From Tyto alba (Eukaryota; Chordata; Aves; Strigiformes; Tytonidae), in assembly GCF_018691265.1 (NCBI RefSeq), contig NW_024881321.1:12465387-12529386 (forward strand): a stretch of 64,000 nucleotides of DNA, given 5' to 3'. Position numbers and translations under genes: made by a program. The notes beneath the pieces are model-generated. The model searched no databases. It was not told where the DNA came from and worked only from the letters and a program-made list of their open reading frames with translations. Each line of letters starts with the position of its first letter. Within the stretch, counting starts at the first letter, position 1. Below are positions 6,721 to 47,064 of the stretch, in pieces.

Positions 6721-7794
6721 TGTTGTGGTTTAGGCCTGATTGACAGCCAAACACAATGCAGCAGCTCTCTTTTCCTTCCCCTCTGGCAATGAGAAGGGAC
6801 AGAGAGCCAGGATTGGGGTCTAAGATAGGACTGGGATGGGGAAAAAAAAAACCCTTTTATGATCACGAGCAAAAGGCAGACTCATTAGGGGAAGAAAAAA
6901 AAAGAACATACATTTATTACAGACACTAACAACACATAACAGAGCAGGACAGTGAGAAGCATTGCCACATCTTGAGAACACCTTCCCCCCACCCCTCCCT
7001 TCTTCCCGGGCTCACTTCTGCTCCCAATATCTTTACCTCCTCCCCCAGTGGCGCAGGGGCAGGGAATGGGGGTGCAGTCAGTGCTGCCACTTCCTTCATC
7101 TTCGGTGAGGGGAGTGTCCAAAACTTGTTCCTCCTGCTCCATCGTGGTCCCCCTCTCACAGGAGACAGTCATCCACAAACTTTCTCCCACATGAATTCCT
7201 CCCATGGGCCGCAGCGTTCCCCACACTGCTCCGTCATGGGTCACTAACTTCCTCCGACTGGATTCTCTCCCACGGCTGCAGCCCTTCCCGAGCTGCTCCG
7301 GCGTGGGACTCCCTCGCATGCTGCAATCCTCCCAGCGCTGAATTACAGCAGCGGGGCTACCTTTTCCCATGAGACCCCGGCCTTCTTCAGGCACAGAACC
7401 TTGATCAGCTGAGCTAGAGCAGCAGGCCATAAATCAATGTCTGCTCCACCGTAGATCTTCATGGGTGGCAGGGGGGGGCCGCCCTGCCGTCTCACCACAG
7501 GATACAGGAGGGTCTCTGCTCCGGCACACCTCCCTCCTCCTTTCTTCCTCCGTTCCTCCACTGACCTTGGTGTTCATTCAGCTGCAGCAACTCCTCCTCA
7601 CAAGTCCGACTGCCCGTCACCACGTCCCTTCTTAAATACGTTATCGCAGAGGCGCAGCCGATTGGCTCAATTTCCCAAACAGAAGTGGAGCTGATATGGA
7701 GCTGGGGGAGCTTCAAGAAGCTTCTCAGAGGGGGCCGCCCCAATAGCCCCCTCCCCTGCCACCAAAAACTCCACCACTCACTCAACCCAGGACA
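6721..7794 (-). mobile_element. Nested solo ERV LTR (family 1) with 5-bp duplication AGTAG
   Basis: A complete 1,074-bp LTR inserted into the family 2 LTR. The 5-bp target duplication agtag is perfect at 6716-6720 and 7795-7799, and the termini are TG...CA. Reading on the minus strand it has the family order: start TGTCCTGGG, a TATTTAAG core promoter, a GC-rich R region and an AATAAA signal (plus strand tttatt near 6911), then the terminal CCACAACA. A 5-bp duplication fits ERV-L or some ERV1 integrases. No internal viral genes are present, so this is a recombined solo LTR. It carries a 181-codon open frame on the minus strand (6885-7430), discussed with the other copies. Confidence 0.92.
6885..7430 (-). 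other. LTR-embedded open frame, 181 codons
   Basis: An open frame inside the R region of the nested family 1 LTR. Its product begins MACC and shares long collinear stretches with the frames at 22516-23217 and 26674-27387, including a Gly/Lys-rich middle and a hydrophobic stretch near residues 153-176 (VAMLLTVLLCYVLLVSV) that could span a membrane. This copy ends soon after that stretch, whereas the 237-codon copy continues. It may simply be open because the region is GC-rich and the copies are young. I do not recognise the protein and do not claim that it is made. Confidence 0.3.
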
Positions 7795-21756: not shown

Positions 21757-21866
21757 ATTTATTGAGATATTCTAAATACCACTATATAGGTATCATGGAT
21801 TCAGTTGCATACTAGCAACTGAATCCATGATACCTATATAGTGGTATTTAGAATATCTCAATAAAT
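21757..21866. repeat. Perfect inverted repeat, 52-bp arms, 6-nt loop
   Basis: Left arm 21757-21808 and right arm 21815-21866 are exact reverse complements around the loop atacta. The arms carry no mismatch, so the structure is either very young or is maintained by gene conversion or template switching. The tip of the hairpin (about 26 bp, cagttgc-loop-gcaactg and flanks) occurs again directly downstream at 21867-21892. No target duplication or transposon ends are seen. It could fold into a long stem-loop RNA if transcribed. A cloning or assembly fold-back is the main alternative. Confidence 0.95.
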
Positions 21867-22149: not shown

Positions 22150-23219
22150 TGACCCGGGTTGAGTGAGTGGTAGAGTTTTTTTTGGTGGCAGGGGACGGAG
22201 CTATAGGGGAGACCCCCTGTGAGAAGCTTCTCAAAGGTCCCCCAGCTCCAAGTCAGCTCCACTTCTGTTTTGAAACTAAGCCAATCAGCTTCACCTCTGT
22301 GATAATGTATTTAGGAAGGGAGGTGGTGACGTGCAGTCAGACTTGTGAGGAGGAGTTGCAGCAGCTGCATGAACACCAAGGTCAGTGGAGGAACAGAGGA
22401 AGGAAAGAGTGGAGAGGTGTGCCAGTGCAGAGACCCCCCTGTATCCTGTGGTGACACGGCAGGGTGGCCCCCCCCTGCCACCCATGAAGATCTACGGTGG
22501 AGCAGATATTGATTTATGGCCTGTGGCTTCCGCCTGATTGATGATCAAGGTTCTGTGCCCAAAGAAGGCCAGTGTCTCATGGGAAAAGGTAGCCCCGCTG
22601 CTGTAATTCAGCGCTGGGAGGATTGCAGCATGCGGGGGAGTCCCACGCCGGAGCAGCTCGGGAAGGGCTGCAGCCGTGGCAGGGAATCCAGTCAGAGGAA
22701 GTTGGTGACCCATGACGGAGCAGTGTGGGGAATGCTGCGGCCCATGGGAGGAATTCATGTGGGAGAAAGTTTGCGGAGGACTGTCTCCTTGAGAGGGGGA
22801 CCACGATGGAGCAGGGGGAAGAAGTTCCAGAAGCTTCCTGCACTGAAGATGGAGAATGTGGCAGCACTGACTGCACCCCCCATTCCCTGCCCCTGCGCCA
22901 CTGGGGGAGGAGGTAGAGATATTGGGAGCAGAGCTGAGCCCGGGAAGAAGGGAGGGGTGTGGGGAAGGTGTTCTCAACATGTGGCAATTTTCTCACTGTC
23001 CTACTGTTACGTGTTGTTAGTGTCTGTAATAAATGTGCATTCTTTTTTTCTTCCACTAACATGTCTGCCTTTTGCTCGTGTCCATAAAGGGGAATTTTCC
23101 CCATCCCAGTCCTATCTTAAACCCCAATCCTGGCTCTCTGTCCCTTCTTATTGCTGGAAGAGAAGGGAGAGAGAGCCGCTGCATGGTGGTTGGCTGCTGA
23201 CCAGGCCCAAACCATGACA
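22150..23219 (+). mobile_element. Solo ERV LTR (family 1), plus strand
   Basis: A 1,070-bp LTR that starts tgacccggg and ends accatgaca. Flanks are ttatg (22145-22149) and ttgtg (23220-23224), a 5-bp duplication with one later change. The core promoter is represented by gtatttagg near 22308, weaker than TATTTAAG in the sister copy, and the AATAAA signal is near 23029. The distance between them implies an unusually long, GC-rich R region of about 700 bp. There is no internal proviral sequence next to it. Confidence 0.9.
22516..23217 (+). other. LTR-embedded open frame, 233 codons
   Basis: Open frame inside the LTR at 22150-23219, starting MACG. It is collinear with the frames at 26674-27387 and 6885-7430 over the first 130 or so residues. 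The hydrophobic stretch near residues 155-174 is altered relative to the sister copies, and the C-terminal part runs almost to the LTR end. The function is unknown. The reverse strand of the same DNA is also open for 162-175 codons, which argues that openness partly reflects base composition. Confidence 0.3.
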
Positions 23220-23224
23220 TTGTG

Positions 23225-26308: not shown

Positions 26309-27384
26309 TGTTCTGGGTTGAGTGAGTGGTGGAGTTTTTTGGTGGCAGGGGAGGGGGCTATCAGGGCAGCCCCCTGTGAGAAGCTTCTCGAAGCTCCCCC
26401 AGCTCCACATCAGCTCCACTTCTGTTTGGGAAATTGAGCCAATCAGCTGCGCCTCTGCGATAATGTATTTAAGAAGGGATGTGGTGACATGCAGTCAGAC
26501 TTGTGAGGAGGAGTTGCTACAGCTGCCTGAACACCAAGGTCAGTGGAGGAACGGAGGAAGAAAGGAGGGGGGAGGTCTGCCGGAGAAGAGACCCCCCTAT
26601 ATTCTGTGGTGAGATGGCAGGGTGGCCCCGCCCTGCCACCCATGAAGATCTACGGTGGAGCAGACATTGATTTATGGCCTGTTGCTCCTGCTCGGATAAT
26701 CAAGGTTCTGTGCCCGAAGAAGGCCAGTGTCTCATGGGAAAAGGTAGCCCCACTGCTGTAATTCAGCGCTGGGAGGATTGCAGCATGCGGGGGAGTCCCA
26801 CACCGGAGCAGCTCGGGAAGGGCTGCAGCCATGGCAGGGAATCCAGTCAGAGGAAGTTAGTGACCCATGACGGAGCAGTGTGCGGAACACTGCGGCCCGT
26901 GGGAGGAATTCATGTGGGAGAAAGTTTGCGGAGGACTGTCTCCTGTGAGAGGGGGACCACGATGGAGCAGGAGGAACAAGTTTTGGACACTCCCCTCACC
27001 GAAGATGAAGGAAGTGGCAGCACTGACTGCACCCCCCATTCCCTGCCCCTGCGCCACTGGGGGGGAGGACGTAGAGATATCGGGAGCAGAAGTGAGCCCG
27101 GGAAGAAGGGAGGGGTGTGGGGAAGGTGTTCTCAAGATGTGGCAATGCTTCTCACTGTCCTGCTCTGTTATGTGTTGTTAGTGTCTGTAATAAATGTATG
27201 TTCTTTTTTTTTCCTTCCCCTAACGAGTCTGCCTTTTGCTCGTGATCATAAAGGGGAATTTTTCCCCATCCCAGTCCTATCTCGAACCCCAAGCCTGGCT
27301 CTCTGTCCCTTCTCATTGCCGGAGGGGAAGGGAGAGGGAGCTGCTGCATTGTGGTTGGCTGCCAATCAGGCCCAAACCACGACA
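26309..27384 (+). mobile_element. Solo ERV LTR (family 1) with 5-bp duplication TGAGC
   Basis: The best preserved copy of the family, 1,076 bp. It has a perfect duplication tgagc at 26304-26308 and 27385-27389, starts tgttctggg and ends accacgaca. A TATTTAA core promoter lies at 26466-26472 and an AATAAA signal at 27189-27194, so U3 is about 190 bp, R about 700 bp and U5 about 170 bp. The long R region is GC-rich and holds a 237-codon open frame. Confidence 0.93.
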
Positions 27385-27387
27385 TGA
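26674..27387 (+). other. LTR-embedded open frame, 237 codons
   Basis: The longest of the related LTR frames. It begins MACC shortly after the middle of the LTR and runs into the target duplication, so its last residue lies outside the element. A hydrophobic segment near residues 157-179 (MLLTVLLCYVLLVSVINV) is the only domain-like feature, and it is followed by several aromatic residues. No viral accessory protein is recognised. It lies between the inferred start site and the poly(A) signal, so it would be included in an LTR transcript. Confidence 0.3.
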
Positions 27388-36060: not shown

Positions 36061-36089
36061 CAGGCAGGAAGGAAGGCAGGAAGGCAGGA

Positions 36090-36137
<48 letters not shown>

Positions 36138-36300
36138 AGGAAGGAAGGAAGGAAGGAAGGAAGGAAGGAAGGAAGGAAGGAAGGAAGGAAGGAAGGAAGG
36201 AAGGAAGGAAGGAAGGAAGGAAGGAAGGAAGGAAGGAAGGAAGGAAGGAAGGAAGGAAGGAAGGAAGGAAGGAAGGAAGGCAGGAAGGAAGGCAGGAAGG

Positions 36301-36332
<32 letters not shown>

Positions 36333-36364
36333 CAGGAAGGAAGGCAGGAAGGAAGGCAGGAAGG

Positions 36365-36396
<32 letters not shown>

Positions 36397-36420
36397 AAGG
36401 CAGGAAGGAAGGCAGGAAGG

Positions 36421-36452
<32 letters not shown>

Positions 36453-36496
36453 CAGGAAGGAAGGAAGGCAGGAAGGAAGGAAGGCAGGAAGGAAGG

Positions 36497-36528
<32 letters not shown>

Positions 36529-36580
36529 CAGGAAGGAAGGAAGGCAGGAAGGAAGGAAGGCAGGAAGGAAGGCAGGAAGG

Positions 36581-36612
<32 letters not shown>

Positions 36613-37456
36613 AAGGAAGGAAGGAAGGAAGGAAGGAAGGAAGGAAGGAAGGAAGGAAGGAAGGAAGGAAGGAAGGAAGGAAGGAAGGAAGGAAGGAAGG
36701 AAGGAAGGAAGGAAGGAAGGAAGGAAGGAAGGAAGGAAGGAAGGAAGGAAGGAAGGAAGGAAGGAAGGAAGGAAGGAAGGAAGGAAGGAAGGAAGGAAGG
36801 AAGGAAGGAAGGAAGGAAGGAAGGAAGGAAGGAAGGAAGGAAGGAAGGAAGGAAGGAAGGAAGGAAGGAAGGAAGGAAGGAAGGAAGGAAGGAAGGAAGG
36901 AAGGAAGGAAGGAAGGAAGGAAGGAAGGAAGGAAGGAAGGCAGGCAGGAAGGCAGGCAGGAAGGCAGGAAGGCAGGAAGGCAGGAAGGCAGGAAGGCAGG
37001 AAGGCAGGAAGGCAGGAAGGCAGGAAGGCAGGAAGGCAGGAAGGAAGGAAGGCAGGAAGGCAGGAAGGAAGGAAGGAAGGAAGGCAGGAAGGAAGGAAGG
37101 AAGGAAGGAAGGAAGGAAGGAAGGAAGGAAGGCAGGAAGGCAGGAAGGCAGGAAGGCAGGAAGGCAGGAAGGCAGGAAGGCAGGAAGGCAGGAAGGCAGG
37201 AAGGCAGGAAGGCAGGAAGGCAGGAAGGCAGGAAGGAAGGAAGGAAGGAAGGAAGGAAGGAAGGAAGGAAGGCAGGAAGGAAGGAAGGCAGGAAGGCAGG
37301 AAGGCAGGAAGGCAGGAAGGCAGGAAGGCAGGAAGGCAGGAAGGCAGGAAGGCAGGAAGGCAGGAAGGCAGGAAGGCAGGAAGGCAGGAAGGCAGGAAGG
37401 CAGGAAGGAAGGAAGGAAGGAAGGCAGGAAGGAAGGCAGGAAGGAAGGCAGGAAGG

Positions 37457-37488
<32 letters not shown>

Positions 37489-38944
37489 AAGGAAGGAAGG
37501 AAGGAAGGAAGGAAGGAAGGAAGGAAGGAAGGAAGGAAGGAAGGAAGGAAGGAAGGAAGGAAGGAAGGAAGGAAGGAAGGAAGGAAGGAAGGAAGGAAGG
37601 AAGGAAGGAAGGAAGGAAGGAAGGAAGGAAGGAAGGAAGGAAGGAAGGAAGGAAGGAAGGAAGGAAGGAAGGAAGGAAGGAAGGAAGGAAGGAAGGAAGG
37701 AAGGAAGGAAGGAAGGAAGGAAGGAAGGAAGGAAGGAAGGAAGGAAGGAAGGAAGGAAGGAAGGAAGGAAGGAAGGAAGGAAGGAAGGAAGGAAGGAAGG
37801 AAGGAAGGAAGGAAGGAAGGAAGGAAGGAAGGAAGGAAGGAAGGAAGGAAGGAAGGAAGGAAGGAAGGAAGGAAGGAAGGAAGGAAGGAAGGAAGGAAGG
37901 AAGGAAGGAAGGAAGGAAGGAAGGAAGGAAGGAAGGAAGGAAGGAAGGAAGGAAGGAAGGAAGGAAGGAAGGAAGGAAGGAAGGAAGGAAGGAAGGAAGG
38001 AAGGAAGGAAGGAAGGAAGGAAGGAAGGAAGGAAGGAAGGAAGGAAGGAAGGAAGGAAGGAAGGAAGGAAGGAAGGAAGGAAGGAAGGAAGGAAGGAAGG
38101 AAGGAAGGAAGGAAGGAAGGAAGGAAGGAAGGAAGGAAGGAAGGAAGGAAGGAAGGAAGGAAGGAAGGAAGGAAGGAAGGAAGGAAGGAAGGAAGGAAGG
38201 AAGGAAGGAAGGAAGGAAGGAAGGAAGGAAGGAAGGAAGGAAGGAAGGAAGGAAGGAAGGAAGGAAGGAAGGAAGGAAGGAAGGAAGGAAGGAAGGAAGG
38301 AAGGAAGGAAGGAAGGAAGGAAGGAAGGAAGGAAGGAAGGAAGGAAGGAAGGAAGGAAGGAAGGAAGGAAGGAAGGAAGGAAGGAAGGAAGGAAGGAAGG
38401 AAGGAAGGAAGGAAGGAAGGAAGGAAGGAAGGAAGGAAGGAAGGAAGGAAGGAAGGAAGGAAGGAAGGAAGGAAGGAAGGAAGGAAGGAAGGAAGGAAGG
38501 AAGGAAGGAAGGAAGGAAGGAAGGAAGGAAGGAAGGAAGGAAGGAAGGAAGGAAGGAAGGAAGGAAGGAAGGAAGGAAGGAAGGAAGGAAGGAAGGAAGG
38601 AAGGAAGGAAGGAAGGAAGGAAGGAAGGAAGGAAGGAAGGAAGGAAGGAAGGAAGGAAGGAAGGAAGGAAGGAAGGAAGGAAGGAAGGAAGGAAGGAAGG
38701 AAGGAAGGAAGGAAGGAAGGAAGGAAGGAAGGAAGGAAGGAAGGAAGGAAGGAAGGAAGGAAGGAAGGAAGGAAGGAAGGAAGGAAGGAAGGAAGGAAGG
38801 AAGGAAGGAAGGAAGGAAGGAAGGAAGGAAGGAAGGAAGGAAAGAAGGAAAGAAGGAAAGAAGGAAAGAAGGAAAGAAGGAAAGAAGGAAAGAAGGAAAG
38901 AAGGAAAGAAGGAAAGAAGGAAAGAAGGAAAGAAGGAAGGAAGG
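36061..38944 (+). repeat. 2.9 kb GGAA/GGCA tetranucleotide array
   Basis: A nearly pure array of 4-bp units. Pure GGAA blocks lie at 36134-36280 (147 bp), 36598-36940 (343 bp) and 37474-38840 (1,367 bp). They are separated by blocks where GGCA alternates with GGAA, including a leading GGCA run at 36105-36135. At the right end (38841-38936) the unit changes to the octamer AAAGAAGG. From 37474 to 38944 the plus strand is uninterrupted purine (1,471 nt). The long open frames seen across it on both strands are by-products of the repeat, since a 4-bp unit without stops stays open in every frame. Confidence 0.98.
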
Positions 38945-41862: not shown

Positions 41863-42558
41863 AAGAGTGTATTGGGTGTATATGGCAAGGTTTTGGTAGT
41901 GGAGGGCTACAGGAGTGGTGTCTGTGAGAAGATACCAGAAGCTTCCCCCATGTCTGACAGAGCTAATGCCAGCTGGCTCCAAGGTGGACCCACTGCTGGA
42001 CAAGGTCAAGCCCATAAGCAACAGTGGTAGCACCTTTGTGATAACATATTTGAGAAGGGAGAAAAACCACTCTGCAACAGCAGATGGGAGAGAGGAGTGA
42101 GAATATGTGAGAAACATCACCACGCTGGAGCAGTCTATTCCTGGAAGACTGCATCCTGTGGAAAGGACTCATGGTGTTCATGATGACACGCAATTCATGG
42201 GAAAAACCCACATTGGAGAAGTTTGTGGAGGACTGTCTCTTGTGGGAGGGACCCCACGATAGAGTAGGGGAAGATCATGAGGAGGAAGGAATGGCAGAGA
42301 CAACATGTAATAAGCAGACTGAAACCCCCATTCTCTAACCCCCATTTCTCATCCCCCTGCATTGCTCAAAGAGGTAGAGAAAATTGGGAGTGAAGTTGAG
42401 CCTGTGAAGAAAGGATGAGTGGGGGGGAAGGTGTTTTAAGATTGTTCTTATTTCTTCTTATCCTACTCTGACTTTTGATTGGCAATAAATTAAATTAATT
42501 TCCCTGAGTCAAGTCTGGTTTGCCTGTGAAGGTAATTAGTGAGTGATATCCTTGTCTT

Positions 42559-42584
42559 GCAGGAGTAACTATGACTCTCTTAAG
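42559..42584 (+). other. 28S rRNA leader fused to the R2 5' end
   Basis: Twenty-six bases match the vertebrate 28S sequence just upstream of the R2 insertion site, ending in gactctcttaag at the known cleavage position. The one difference from the remembered 28S sequence is at 42561, a G to A change in a CpG. This is the only rRNA sequence here, and it is far too short to be a functional rRNA gene. It begins where the predicted ribozyme would cut. Confidence 0.85.
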
Positions 42585-42680
42585 ACGGGATCATAGTTAC
42601 TAACTGGGCTCAGCTGCAGAGGTCACGCCTCCCAGCGGTCCTGCCGGATACCCTTCTGGGTAACTGAAGTGGCCTCTGCC
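42559..42680 (+). ncRNA. HDV-like self-cleaving ribozyme of R2
   Basis: R2 transcripts are known to free their 5' ends from the rRNA co-transcript with an HDV-like ribozyme. A matching double pseudoknot can be drawn here. P1 pairs 42559-42564 (gcagga, in the 28S leader) with 42639-42644 (tcctgc). P2 pairs 42616-42626 with 42669-42679 (11 bp, one G-U). P3 is short (gcc 42627-42629 with ggt 42637-42639, sharing one base with P1). P1.1 could form between the cc of loop L3 and gg at 42646-42647. P4 is a hairpin taccc/gggta at 42649-42662. The likely catalytic cytosine is C42664 in the joining strand. The J1/2 strand also forms a 10-11 bp stem between 28S leader (42564-42574) and R2 sequence (42591-42601). 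The fold was drawn by hand and no activity is shown. Confidence 0.7.
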
Positions 42681-42881
42681 CCAGTGTGATGAGATACTGT
42701 TACTTCCTCCCTATCAAGTGATTTCACGGACCACTTGATAGTATCTAATTGGTGATACAAAATTTCGGAGTCTAAATTGACTACCCAGAGCCTGGCCCAC
42801 GGGCCTATGTTGGGTGCAGTCTGACAGCTCGTAAGGGAGTACTGTCTGGCTTAAATTTGACCCTTACCTGGAATTGACAAA

Positions 42882-45800
42882 ATGTGTCTAGCAGCACGGA
42901 TAGCTTTCGTGTCTGTGGGCACCCAAACAAGTCTTCTAGACTTGCATGACGATGTGGTCCCTCGTACCATCAGAGACCACGCCAAATTGGTGGACGTTGG
43001 GATAAATTTTAGAAGATTGGAGTTTGTTAACTCAAGTGCGGAAGGATTGGAGGGGAGAGATCTATCCACCGTGACTGAGAGTTTATCCATGTTGCCGGAG
43101 GTGTATGAGGAACCTTCCCCTTCTGTACTGGAGGGCAAGGACATCAGCCCCCTCCTTCGGGAGAGTGAGTCAGAAGGGGAGGGGGAGCTCTCGCCCCCAG
43201 GGGCCATGGCTCAACTCTCCCCATTGCCATCGTCACCTATCCTGGCTTCAGGGGGAGAACCTTCACCGGAAGGCACACCTGTGGTGAAGGTTCTGGACAA
43301 AAATACACCTTGTCCATGTTGCGGAACCAGGATAGGAAAAGTGTCGGGACTGGTTGAACATCTAAGGAGAGTGCATGGGAGGAGAAAGATCTTGTTTCAG
43401 TGTGCGCTGTGTGGAAGAACGAATGAGAAACATCATAGTATTGCTTGCCACGTTCCCAAATGCAAGGGAGCCATAGAGGCAACCCCAAAAGAAGGGTTGG
43501 CGTGTGAGGAGTGCGGACGGATGTTTGAAACAAAAATCGGCCTGGGACAACATAAGCATTTGGCCCATCCAGTCACTAGAAATCTGGAGCGAATCATGGC
43601 CTCACGCCCTAAAGAGACTTCCACGAGAGGGGTACACCGAAAGTGTTGGATGGAAGAGGAAGTTGAGATCTTGCGTAAGTTGGAGAAGCAGTATGAAGAA
43701 AATAGAAACATCAATAAGCTGATTGCAGAGGAATTGCCCTTCAAGACAGCGAAGCAGATAAGTGACAAAAGAAGGATTCTGAACAGGAGTCCGGCTAAGA
43801 AGAGGGAAGAAGATCAAGAGTGGAAGAAACATCTAAGAGAAGGGGAACATCTGGCGAGCATTGGACCCCGGAAAAGAGGTGGGGGGCTGAGGTCCCATTA
43901 CCGAAAGACTATCTCAAAATGGATAACAGCTGGAAAACTGCGCATTCTTCATGCAACATTTGAGAAGGTAATCGAAGGCGGAGAAGATCTGCCAACGACG
44001 GTTGGTGGTGCGGTGGAGGACTGCTACGCACTCCTGTTCAGGAGGTCTTCCGAGTTGGAAGCGAGTCAAGGGCGGAAACTCCAGACGGCCCGCACGGCAT
44101 GCTCTTCGGAACCACCGAAGGAGTGGATGAAGAGGGCCAGGAAGAGAGGGGAGTTTCTACGGTTCCAGCGGCTGTTCCACCTGGACAGGGGGAAACCAGC
44201 CAGTATAATCCTGGATGATGTAGAGTCCCTGAAGTGCGGTCTGCCACTTGACGAGGTGCACCATGTGTTCAAGTCAAGATGGGAGTCGCTGGGAACATTC
44301 AAGGGCCTCGGATGTTTCAAGACCCTGGGTCACGCAGACAACTCAGCAGTCGAAGCCATGATCACGTCGAAAGAAATCTCGAAGAACATCAAGGAGATGA
44401 GCAAGAACTCAGCACCAGGGCCAGATGGTCTTAGTTTGAGGGGTCTCATGGCTATTGACCCCCACTATACCATGCTGGCGGAACTGTACAATCTGTGGCT
44501 GCTGACTGGTACCATCCTGGACATGGTGAAAGAATGTCGGACCGTGTTAATATCTAAATCAGCCCTGCCGGAGCGCCAGAAGGATATTAATAACTAGCGC
44601 CCCATTACCATCGGCTCGACGGTCCTGAGATTATTCTCAAGGATCATCACAGTGAGGCTGACTAAGGCGTGCCCGATCAGTCCACGGCAAAGGGGATTTA
44701 TAAGATCTGCTGGCTGTGCGGAGAATCTAAAGTTGCTGCAACTTCTGATTCGGAACGCGAAGAGAGAGAAGCATCCCCTGGGTGTGGTGTTCGTCGATCT
44801 AGCAAAGGCCTTCGACACAGTGAGCCATAATCATATTATTGAAGTGTTAAAACAAATGGGTGTGGACAACCACATAATTTCTTTAATTTCTAACATGTAT
44901 AGCAATACTCATACCTATATTGACATGAAGTCTGAACTGTCGGATCCCATCGGGATTCGGATTGGTGTGAAACAGGGTGATCCAATGTCTCTTATACTGT
45001 TTAACTTATCTGTGGATTCTCTACTGTGTGTATTGGAGAAAGAGGGGAGTGGGTACCAACATTATTCGATGAGTATAACATCTATGGCTTTTGTGGACGA
45101 TCTGGTACTGCTAAGTGGGTCCTGGGAAGGAATGCGGAGAAATATTGAAATTGTTGACGCTTTTTGTGATTTGACGGGTCTGAAAACACAGGGAGAGAAG
45201 TGCCACGGCTTTTATATACAGTCGACTAAAGACTCATATACCATCAATGATTGTCCTGCATGGACCATTAAAGGCACTCCCCTCAACATGATTGAGCCAG
45301 GCAGTTCGGAGAAATATCTGGGTCTGAAAATTGACCCGTGGGTTGGTATATCCAAACCGGAACTGCTGGCCAAAACTAAAGATTGGCTACATCGGATTGA
45401 CCGGGCTCCTTTAAAACCTATGCAGAAAGTAGACATCTTGAAAGTGTATACCATTCCGCGCATGATCTACTTGGCAGACCAGTCCGATGTAAAAGTCTCG
45501 TACCTTGAATCGCTAGATCTGACAATTAGAACTGCTGTCAAAGAGTGGGTACACTTGCCACCTAGTACCTGTGACGCCATCCTATATTCCAGCACAAGGG
45601 ATGGCGGTTTGGGACTCACCAGGCTATCGGGGTTAATTCCCAGTGTGCAGGCTTGAAGACTGCACAGAATTGCGCAGTCTTCGGATAAGGTGATCAGGGA
45701 AATTGTAAGTAAAGAGGGTATTGAGAAAGAGTATGAGAAATTATGGTTAGCGGCAGGGGGAAATAAGGAAAAGATTCCATCTATATGGGACCCGAGTTCG

Positions 45801-46646
45801 GTCATGGTGACCACAGAAGTGTTGGGCGGGATAGATCAATATTCGGAATGGGAAAGGCCCACTCCTAAAACCATATTTCCGAAACCTAGTGATTGGTGTA
45901 AGCAAGAATTTATAAAGTGGACCAAATTGGCTTCCCAGGGCCGTGGGATTACCAACTTTGAGGAGGATAAGATCAGTAACAGCTGGTTAGAAAGATACAG
46001 GGGCATTCCTCAGAGAAAGATCATCACCGCTTTACAACTACGGGCCAACGTCTACCCCACAAGAGAATTTCTAGTGAGGGGTAGGCAAGAGACACATGTA
46101 AGATCGTGTCGTCACTGTGGAGTGGAAATTGAGAGCTGTTCGCATATCATCGGATACTGCCCGGCGGTGCAAGATGCGAGAATAAAAAGACATAACCAAA
46201 TTTGTGAATTACTAATTGAGGAGGCAAAGAAAAAGGAATGGATAGCATTCCAAGAACCATTGATTCAAGACGAGAAAAAAGAATTGTTTAAACCCGATTT
46301 GGTATTTGTAAGAGAAGAAATAGCAATAGTAGTAGATGTGACCATCAGATACGAAAGTAAAGAAACATCCCTTGAGGATGCGGCAAAAGAGAAAATTAAG
46401 AAATATCAACATTTGGAAGATTAGATTCAGGAACTGACTAATGCAACAACTATTAAATTTATGGGCTTTCCCTTGGGGGCGCGTGGCAAGTGGTACCAGG
46501 GCAATTACACCTTGTTAAAGGAATTGGGACTCTCTAGTTCTCGGCAAGACAAAGTTGCACATCGATTGTCTATTCGTGCATTGTTTTCTTCTGTTGACAT
46601 TATTCATATGTTTAGTAGTAAAGTAAGAACTGTAGAAAATGTTTAA
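42882..46646 (+). pseudogene. R2 protein gene (zinc fingers, Myb, RT, endonuclease), three in-frame stops
   Basis: The R2 protein binds its 28S target, nicks it and reverse transcribes R2 RNA from the nick. One frame of 1,254 codons can be followed from ATG 42882 with no frameshift. It is broken by TAG at 44595-44597 (codon 572), TGA at 45654-45656 (codon 925) and TAG at 46422-46424 (codon 1181). Domains in order: three zinc fingers (C144/C147/H160/H165; C174/C177/H190/C194; C208/C211/H224/H229), a Myb-like domain near 241-290 (W246), RT with motif A FVDL (637), motif B GVKQGDP and catalytic FVDD (737), then a CCHC knuckle (from C1076) and a restriction-like endonuclease with PD at 1138-1139 and D1152. 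An upstream in-frame TGA at 42858 supports this start. The first stop falls inside the RT domain, so this copy cannot make a working protein. Confidence 0.93.
43311..43760 (+). other. R2 DNA-binding region: three zinc fingers plus Myb
   Basis: CCHH, CCHC and CCHH fingers in a row followed by a Myb-like helix-turn-helix. Three fingers, rather than one, is the mark of the R2-A clade. These domains select the 28S site in intact elements, which makes the off-target location of this copy notable. All zinc ligands are intact here. Confidence 0.85.
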
Positions 46647-46940
46647 TTGTATCATCACATTGTAGTTGTAATATCTGTGCACTGTATTACTTCCAAATAA
46701 TAAAATAAAATGGTGTGAAGAGCCGACATGGAAGGATCGTGGGGGGGTTAGATCAGGGGAGAAAATGATCAGAGTATTGGGATTCCAACATAGTAGGTGG
46801 GATCTTGTTCTTTTTATGACGCATCTCAACCGAAATTGACATTAACAATTGAACTTGACTAAATTTTTACCAATTTGGACCCAGGTGGATGGGCCACCTT
46901 TATTTAACTCGGAAAATAAACATATATATAATTTATATGT
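46647..46940 (+). other. R2 3' UTR, right end approximate
   Basis: About 290 nt after the terminal TAA/stop of the R2 frame. In R2 this RNA is folded and recognised by the protein for target-primed reverse transcription. An imperfect AT palindrome (acatatata...tatatgt) sits at 46920-46940, close to the inferred junction with resumed LTR sequence. Confidence 0.6.
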
Positions 46941-47064
46941 GTTTGATAAATGACCAATGAGTCTTTCATCATATTTTCTCTCCCCTGACCAGTTGAGGAT
47001 GGGGAATGATAGAGTGTCTTGGTGGACACCTGGCATCCAGCCATGGTCAATCCATCACAAAGAG

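Follow-up and report, generated by a model that had tools for sequence, protein, structure and literature searches.

The retrotransposon R2 as a rule enters rRNA genes alone. Five Drosophila species are known to carry R2 copies outside rDNA (PMC2718515), and a survey of 360 genomes defined R2 by its 28S site (PMC13188248). The cut made by the zebra finch R2 ribozyme was placed at -28 on structural grounds (PMC3774820), and self-cleavage in vitro has been reported for the white-throated sparrow ribozyme, whose cut is predicted at the same position (PMC11331408). According to a proposal in PMC3774820, the cDNA carries a 28S leader that as a rule anneals to the target; without annealing, leaders of 13-28 nt stay as duplications inside rDNA in several invertebrates. 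Where R2Tg inserts off target in human cells, homology to 28S extends over 4-5 nt downstream; the sites also match between -25 and -19, with T strongly preferred at -20, and about 9 bp upstream they have a T/C-rich followed by a T/A-rich stretch (PMC12222951). The locus described below, in a stretch of DNA of 64,000 nucleotides (the window), is an R2 copy at a site other than the 28S gene, and its two ends can be compared with each of these descriptions.

An R2 copy inside an ERV LTR

The insert and its surroundings were delimited as follows.

41863..41867, no strand: AAGAG, left target duplication of the LTR, from the sequence
41868..42558, + strand: left part of an ERV LTR, from alignment of other LTR copies; the G at 42559 may be LTR or leader
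42559..42584, + strand: 28S rRNA gene leader, -27 to -2, with a single substitution (G to A at -25, in a CpG)
42559..42685, + strand: predicted HDV-like ribozyme, with the 5' strand of P1 from the 28S leader and P1' at 42640-42645
42585..46950, + strand: R2 element proper, full length, from protein alignments and the R2 5' and 3' ends
42882..46646, + strand: R2 reading frame with zinc-finger, Myb, RT and endonuclease regions, in-frame stops at 44595, 45654 and 46422, and RT box FVDD
46647..46950, + strand: R2 3' untranslated region, ending in GATAAA, which is the R2Tg terminus (junction in PMC12222951)
46951..47059, + strand: right part of the same ERV LTR, from LTR copies; its first two bases, TG (46951-46952), recur at the end of the left part
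47060..47064, no strand: AAGAG, right target duplication of the LTR, from the sequence

The LTR spans 41868-47059, has the termini TG...CA and is bordered at both ends by AAGAG. The initial annotation had taken it for a single LTR in two halves with a perfect AAGAG duplication, and this is borne out, as the two parts complete each other. To obtain the empty site, we searched the genome (1.25 Gb, 70 contigs) with the right half of the LTR and scored 40 copies, including the window's own, out of 1097 first-look candidates. None of the 39 other matches begins before 46951. Aligning LTR copies across the site, a check that the initial annotation had proposed, covered 27 of these 39, the remaining 12 being left out; 26 of the 27 run uninterrupted from TCTTG into ACCC or a near variant, and the sole exception (L064) has a left side without alignment. 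TG borders the insert left and right, as a 2-bp duplication or through microhomology. R2 elements and LTRs are repeats and can mislead assemblers, which might have joined the two into a chimera; we consider this very improbable, given the matching AAGAG at two LTR parts that complete each other, the 125 private changes that separate the window copy from its two sister copies (L031 and L032), and the comparable stray R2 copies on other contigs.

The insert as a whole, R2 with its 28S leader, occupies 42559-46950. Its start agrees with the limits first given (42559..46940), and its end had to be moved to 46950. The frame's three open pieces align with the solved protein of R2Tg (9dou) at E <= 4.1e-99, and the same bound holds against the vertebrate-type R2 proteins 9nl3 and 9nl2; the last open piece covers the endonuclease region. 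RVT_1 alone scored above its Pfam cut-off, the zinc-finger and Myb matches falling under theirs, and both of these regions are included in the alignments to full-length R2 proteins. Reading the translation by eye together with the R2Tg alignment, we recognized three N-terminal zinc fingers of types CCHH, CCHC and CCHH. The regions named in the initial annotation (zinc fingers, Myb, RT and endonuclease) are thus confirmed by alignment, whereas the single unbroken frame described there had to be abandoned because of the three stops. Protein homology over all four regions is what an A clade R2 would have, as is a 5' HDV-like ribozyme whose P1 is formed with 28S sequence, here a predicted layout; the reading frame is interrupted, and the location is an LTR, with no rRNA in the window, and not the R2 site of 28S rDNA. 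On these alignments the window copy is an A clade R2 by descent and a stray by position. The seven R2 proteins of the database that are nearest to it include four with bird names (Cyanistes, Willisornis, Cuculus and Ficedula) and three without a name, which makes the host most likely a bird. A tree grouped the window R2 with that of Cuculus at 93/99, which is under the tree tool's own star level, and we assign the host to no order. The earlier claim of a full-length R2 within an ERV LTR stands on the split LTR, the R2 3' terminus and the protein matches.

Some further features of the window were recorded in passing. Another LTR family of about 1.07 kb is present in three copies (6721-7794 on the minus strand, 22156-23220 and 26309-27385 on the plus strand) with 88-93% mutual identity; these are distant relatives of the R2-bearing LTR. 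We had considered them as evidence for the empty site and dropped them as too distant, using true copies from the genome instead. A pattern scan of viral contigs for the R2-bearing LTR gave no match. Elsewhere lie a 2.9 kb AGGA-type purine tandem array at 36062-38944, with about 360 copies of AGGAAGGA and 97% matches, and a near-perfect palindrome of 110 bp at 21757-21866.

Stray R2 insertions and their 5' edge

Searching the genome with the R2 5' region returned 20 matches: the window copy, seven that share the same flanks and were tallied as one duplicated event, and 12 others. This gives at least 14 separate R2-derived insertions, a lower bound, and the idea of a singular event was rejected. 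The flanks of different insertions have no similarity to one another (12 of the 14 served as queries, those of the window and L044 as targets only). The full-length stray copies, namely the window copy, L031 and L032, are 94.5-95.2% identical and contain 3, 3 and 12 in-frame stops. Private changes of the window copy within the reading frame number 95 and fall on the three codon positions in the ratio 28:25:42; this mild third-position excess is as expected if most of the changes arose by decay after insertion and some in a source under selection. Two much older R2-like copies, L043 (leader from -26) and L044, have about 40-50% protein identity in pieces, which suggests that leakage of R2 out of rDNA may be long-standing.

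Several insertions are internally deleted, retaining 435+164 nt in the L029 family and 780+123 nt in L035. The 0.6 kb copy of the L029 family is present in at least seven copies by segmental duplication (L029, L030, L033 and L034, on contigs C9, C26 and C54, and the further matches L015-L017); five of the copies lie between 14.60 and 15.28 Mb of C54. L037, L038 and L040 are about 1.1 kb long and share a core without R2 protein similarity, which L039 has only in part; they form a non-autonomous, R2-ended family outside rDNA (L037:548-1612, L038:567-1714 and L040 on the minus strand, with L039:522-1610 belonging in part).

The opening 26 nt of the insert, GCAGGAGTAACTATGACTCTCTTAAG, are positions -27 to -2 of the 28S rRNA gene with one CpG change, a segment that went unmentioned in the initial annotation. 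For positions -12 to -2 the reference was what we take to be the 28S letters. Numbering follows the primer 28S(-32) in PMC3414825. Rfam found no rRNA family in the window or in 18 records covering the R2 loci, and plasmid sequences searched with the 28S site gave no match.

A 28S leader survives in 11 of the 14 insertions, with unrelated DNA upstream of it; L036, L041 and L044, in which the first 53-116 nt of the query are missing, were left out of this count. With C-to-T and G-to-A changes inside the leader taken as matches, the leader starts at -28 in five insertions (the L029 family, L035, L037, L039 and L042), at -27 in four (the window copy, L032, L038 and L040), at -26 in L043 and at -24 in L031. 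At ten unrelated sites besides the window, then, the edge lies no more than 4 bases from -28. Counted letter by letter over the 11 leaders, matches to 28S rise from 6/44 at -32 to -29 to 5/11 at -28 and 9/11 at -27, are 7/11 and 6/11 at the CpG positions -26 and -25, and reach 33/33 at -24 to -22. The edge is not perfectly sharp: -29 matches the 28S C in one leader of 11 and yet is C or T in seven, so that its last base rests on -30 and -31 (2/11 and 3/11), and L031 counts against a uniform edge at -28.

An Rfam scan of the window for a ribozyme gave no match. HDV-like ribozymes have a characteristic helix order, and we used it as the template for a layout built by hand. In all 11 leader-bearing copies the leader would pair with P1' inside R2, so that an HDV-like layout appears to be kept. 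Predicted pairs are satisfied in 90.5% of 451 cells, against 29.6-44.4% in slid versions, an excess that is partly built in because the layout was hand-made on the same 11 sequences. Shuffled controls reached the observed paired percentage in 8/500 cases and the observed covariation score in 8/500, the number of double changes in 48/500, the cells with double changes in 50/500 and the pair types in 338/500; the covariation controls are mixed. In the window copy, A at -25 and U in P1' form a P1 pair that looks compensatory; we rejected this reading, two CpG changes being the simpler account.

3' junctions and the route of insertion

An end exactly at the R2 3' terminus could be read in nine of the 14 insertions, the other five (L032, L037, L042, L043 and L044) having no exact 3' end in the retrieved sequence. 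This bears on whether any reverse transcription took place at the LTR, since a fragment of 28S-R2 DNA might instead have been moved there by recombination or end joining. In favour of such a transfer, a stray copy was itself multiplied through segmental duplication in the L029 family. Random breakage would not, however, place the 5' edge between -28 and -24 in all 11 leader-bearing insertions or bring nine of 14 to the R2 terminus, and beyond the window copy there is no stretch of downstream 28S; we regard such a transfer as improbable.

The five bases following the R2 terminus are TGACC in the window and TAGCC, TAGCG, TAAAC, TGAGC, TAAGC, TATGG, TAGTC and CAGGC in the other eight. TAGCC, the 28S bases past the normal site, is matched in 29 of 45 letters, or in 24 of 40 without the perfect junction, and none of 20000 random draws from window DNA reached 29; this comparison was picked after the junctions had been seen, and only for the window are the five bases known as target sequence from empty sites. 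Eight of the nine flanks start with T. The aligned LTR copies are pyrimidine-rich ahead of the site, and by our own count the -20 T of the human-cell motif is absent at the window site if the nick precedes TGACC. We discarded a likeness between the LTR segment TAATTAGTGA, directly upstream of the insert, and the 28S sequence that follows the R2 site, because it lies on the wrong side of the nick.

These junctions also bear on how the primer arose. Instead of a nick by the R2 endonuclease, a break already present in the LTR could have primed reverse transcription of the same RNA, and the weak resemblance of the LTR site to the 28S target, with only three of five letters of TAGCC in the window flank, would suit such a break. 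Taken jointly, however, the nine flanks fit TAGCC far beyond chance (29/45), and the T that begins eight of them points to nicks at chosen sites, although such breaks could also have been selected simply by pairing with the primer. Use of a pre-existing break thus seems to us doubtful, if less so than transfer of a DNA fragment.

Read together, the interruption of the LTR, the 3' end of R2, the 28S leader, the HDV-like pairing and the recurrent edge near -28, all apparent at the level of sequence, make it probable that the decayed full-length R2 of the window entered the ERV LTR by target-primed reverse transcription (TPRT) from an R2 RNA whose 5' end had been cut by the ribozyme within the 28S leader. 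The initial annotation had proposed a genuine, nearly complete off-target integration, which these features support. We infer the following order of events, with R2 of 28S rDNA as the source of the stray copies. A 28S/R2 co-transcript would have cut itself at about -28, and R2 protein bound to the 3' end of the RNA would have carried it to the LTR, where the endonuclease may have made a bottom-strand nick just ahead of TGACC. At this nick a template with 28S TAGCC at its end could partly pair and so allow priming. Synthesis of cDNA would then have continued to the 5' end left by the ribozyme and run off it. Unable to anneal to the LTR, the leader presumably stayed, and the end may have been joined through about 1 nt of microhomology. 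The copy would have decayed after insertion.

For the genome as a whole, the most likely account is repeated departure of R2 from rDNA in the form of RNA cut by its ribozyme, with TPRT at weakly matching sites. A broader reading, which we hold with even odds, is that avian R2 has escaped rDNA repeatedly, that the -28 edge may serve as a genome-wide germ-line readout of the ribozyme cut, and that R2 may also drive a dispersed SINE-like family of about 1.1 kb outside rDNA.

Comparison with known R2 systems

Bird R2 proteins are under development as gene-insertion tools for their high site specificity, and this genome offers a natural record of R2 misses: at least 14 insertions, whose 3' junctions agree with the pairing rule reported from human cells. 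The common 5' edge would independently support, in vivo, ribozyme cleavage near -28, and a leader retained away from 28S would support the model in which it normally disappears as it anneals to the target upstream. Among the bird R2 copies described with flanks of 28S fragments (PMC5035012), some are possibly stray copies with a leader. In the open-licence literature we found no report of repeated vertebrate stray R2 with a leader ending at the ribozyme site, of a -28 edge outside rDNA, or of dispersed internally deleted R2 derivatives.

The closest known relatives are the avian A-clade R2 of 28S rDNA (R2-1_TG and relatives; PMC5035012, PMC12222951), which are alike in protein, ribozyme layout and 3' end, whereas the window copy sits in an LTR, has three stops and carries a 28S leader without surrounding 28S. 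The R2Tg off-targets in human cells (PMC12222951) likewise have a short match to 28S downstream of the nick; the window copy differs in being natural, inherited and full-length, and the -20 T is not clearly present. Drosophila R2 SIDEs (PMC3414825) are internally deleted and combine a ribozyme 5' end with the R2 3' end, as do L029, L035, L038 and similar copies, from which the middle is absent; the SIDEs lie in rDNA, whereas ours lie elsewhere, with no rRNA in those loci. The R2 families of planarians and the liver fluke that are not site-specific (PMC5035012) are R2 relatives outside 28S, as here, but those families have lost specificity, whereas here the leader marks each copy as a probable product of a 28S co-transcript. 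Stray R2 and R1 of Drosophila (PMC2718515) are also outside 28S, and stray R1 of the melanogaster type keep 7-28 bp of upstream 28S; the leader-bearing strays there are R1, with leaders ending at -9, whereas here they are R2, probably of a bird, and their upstream edge lies near -28.
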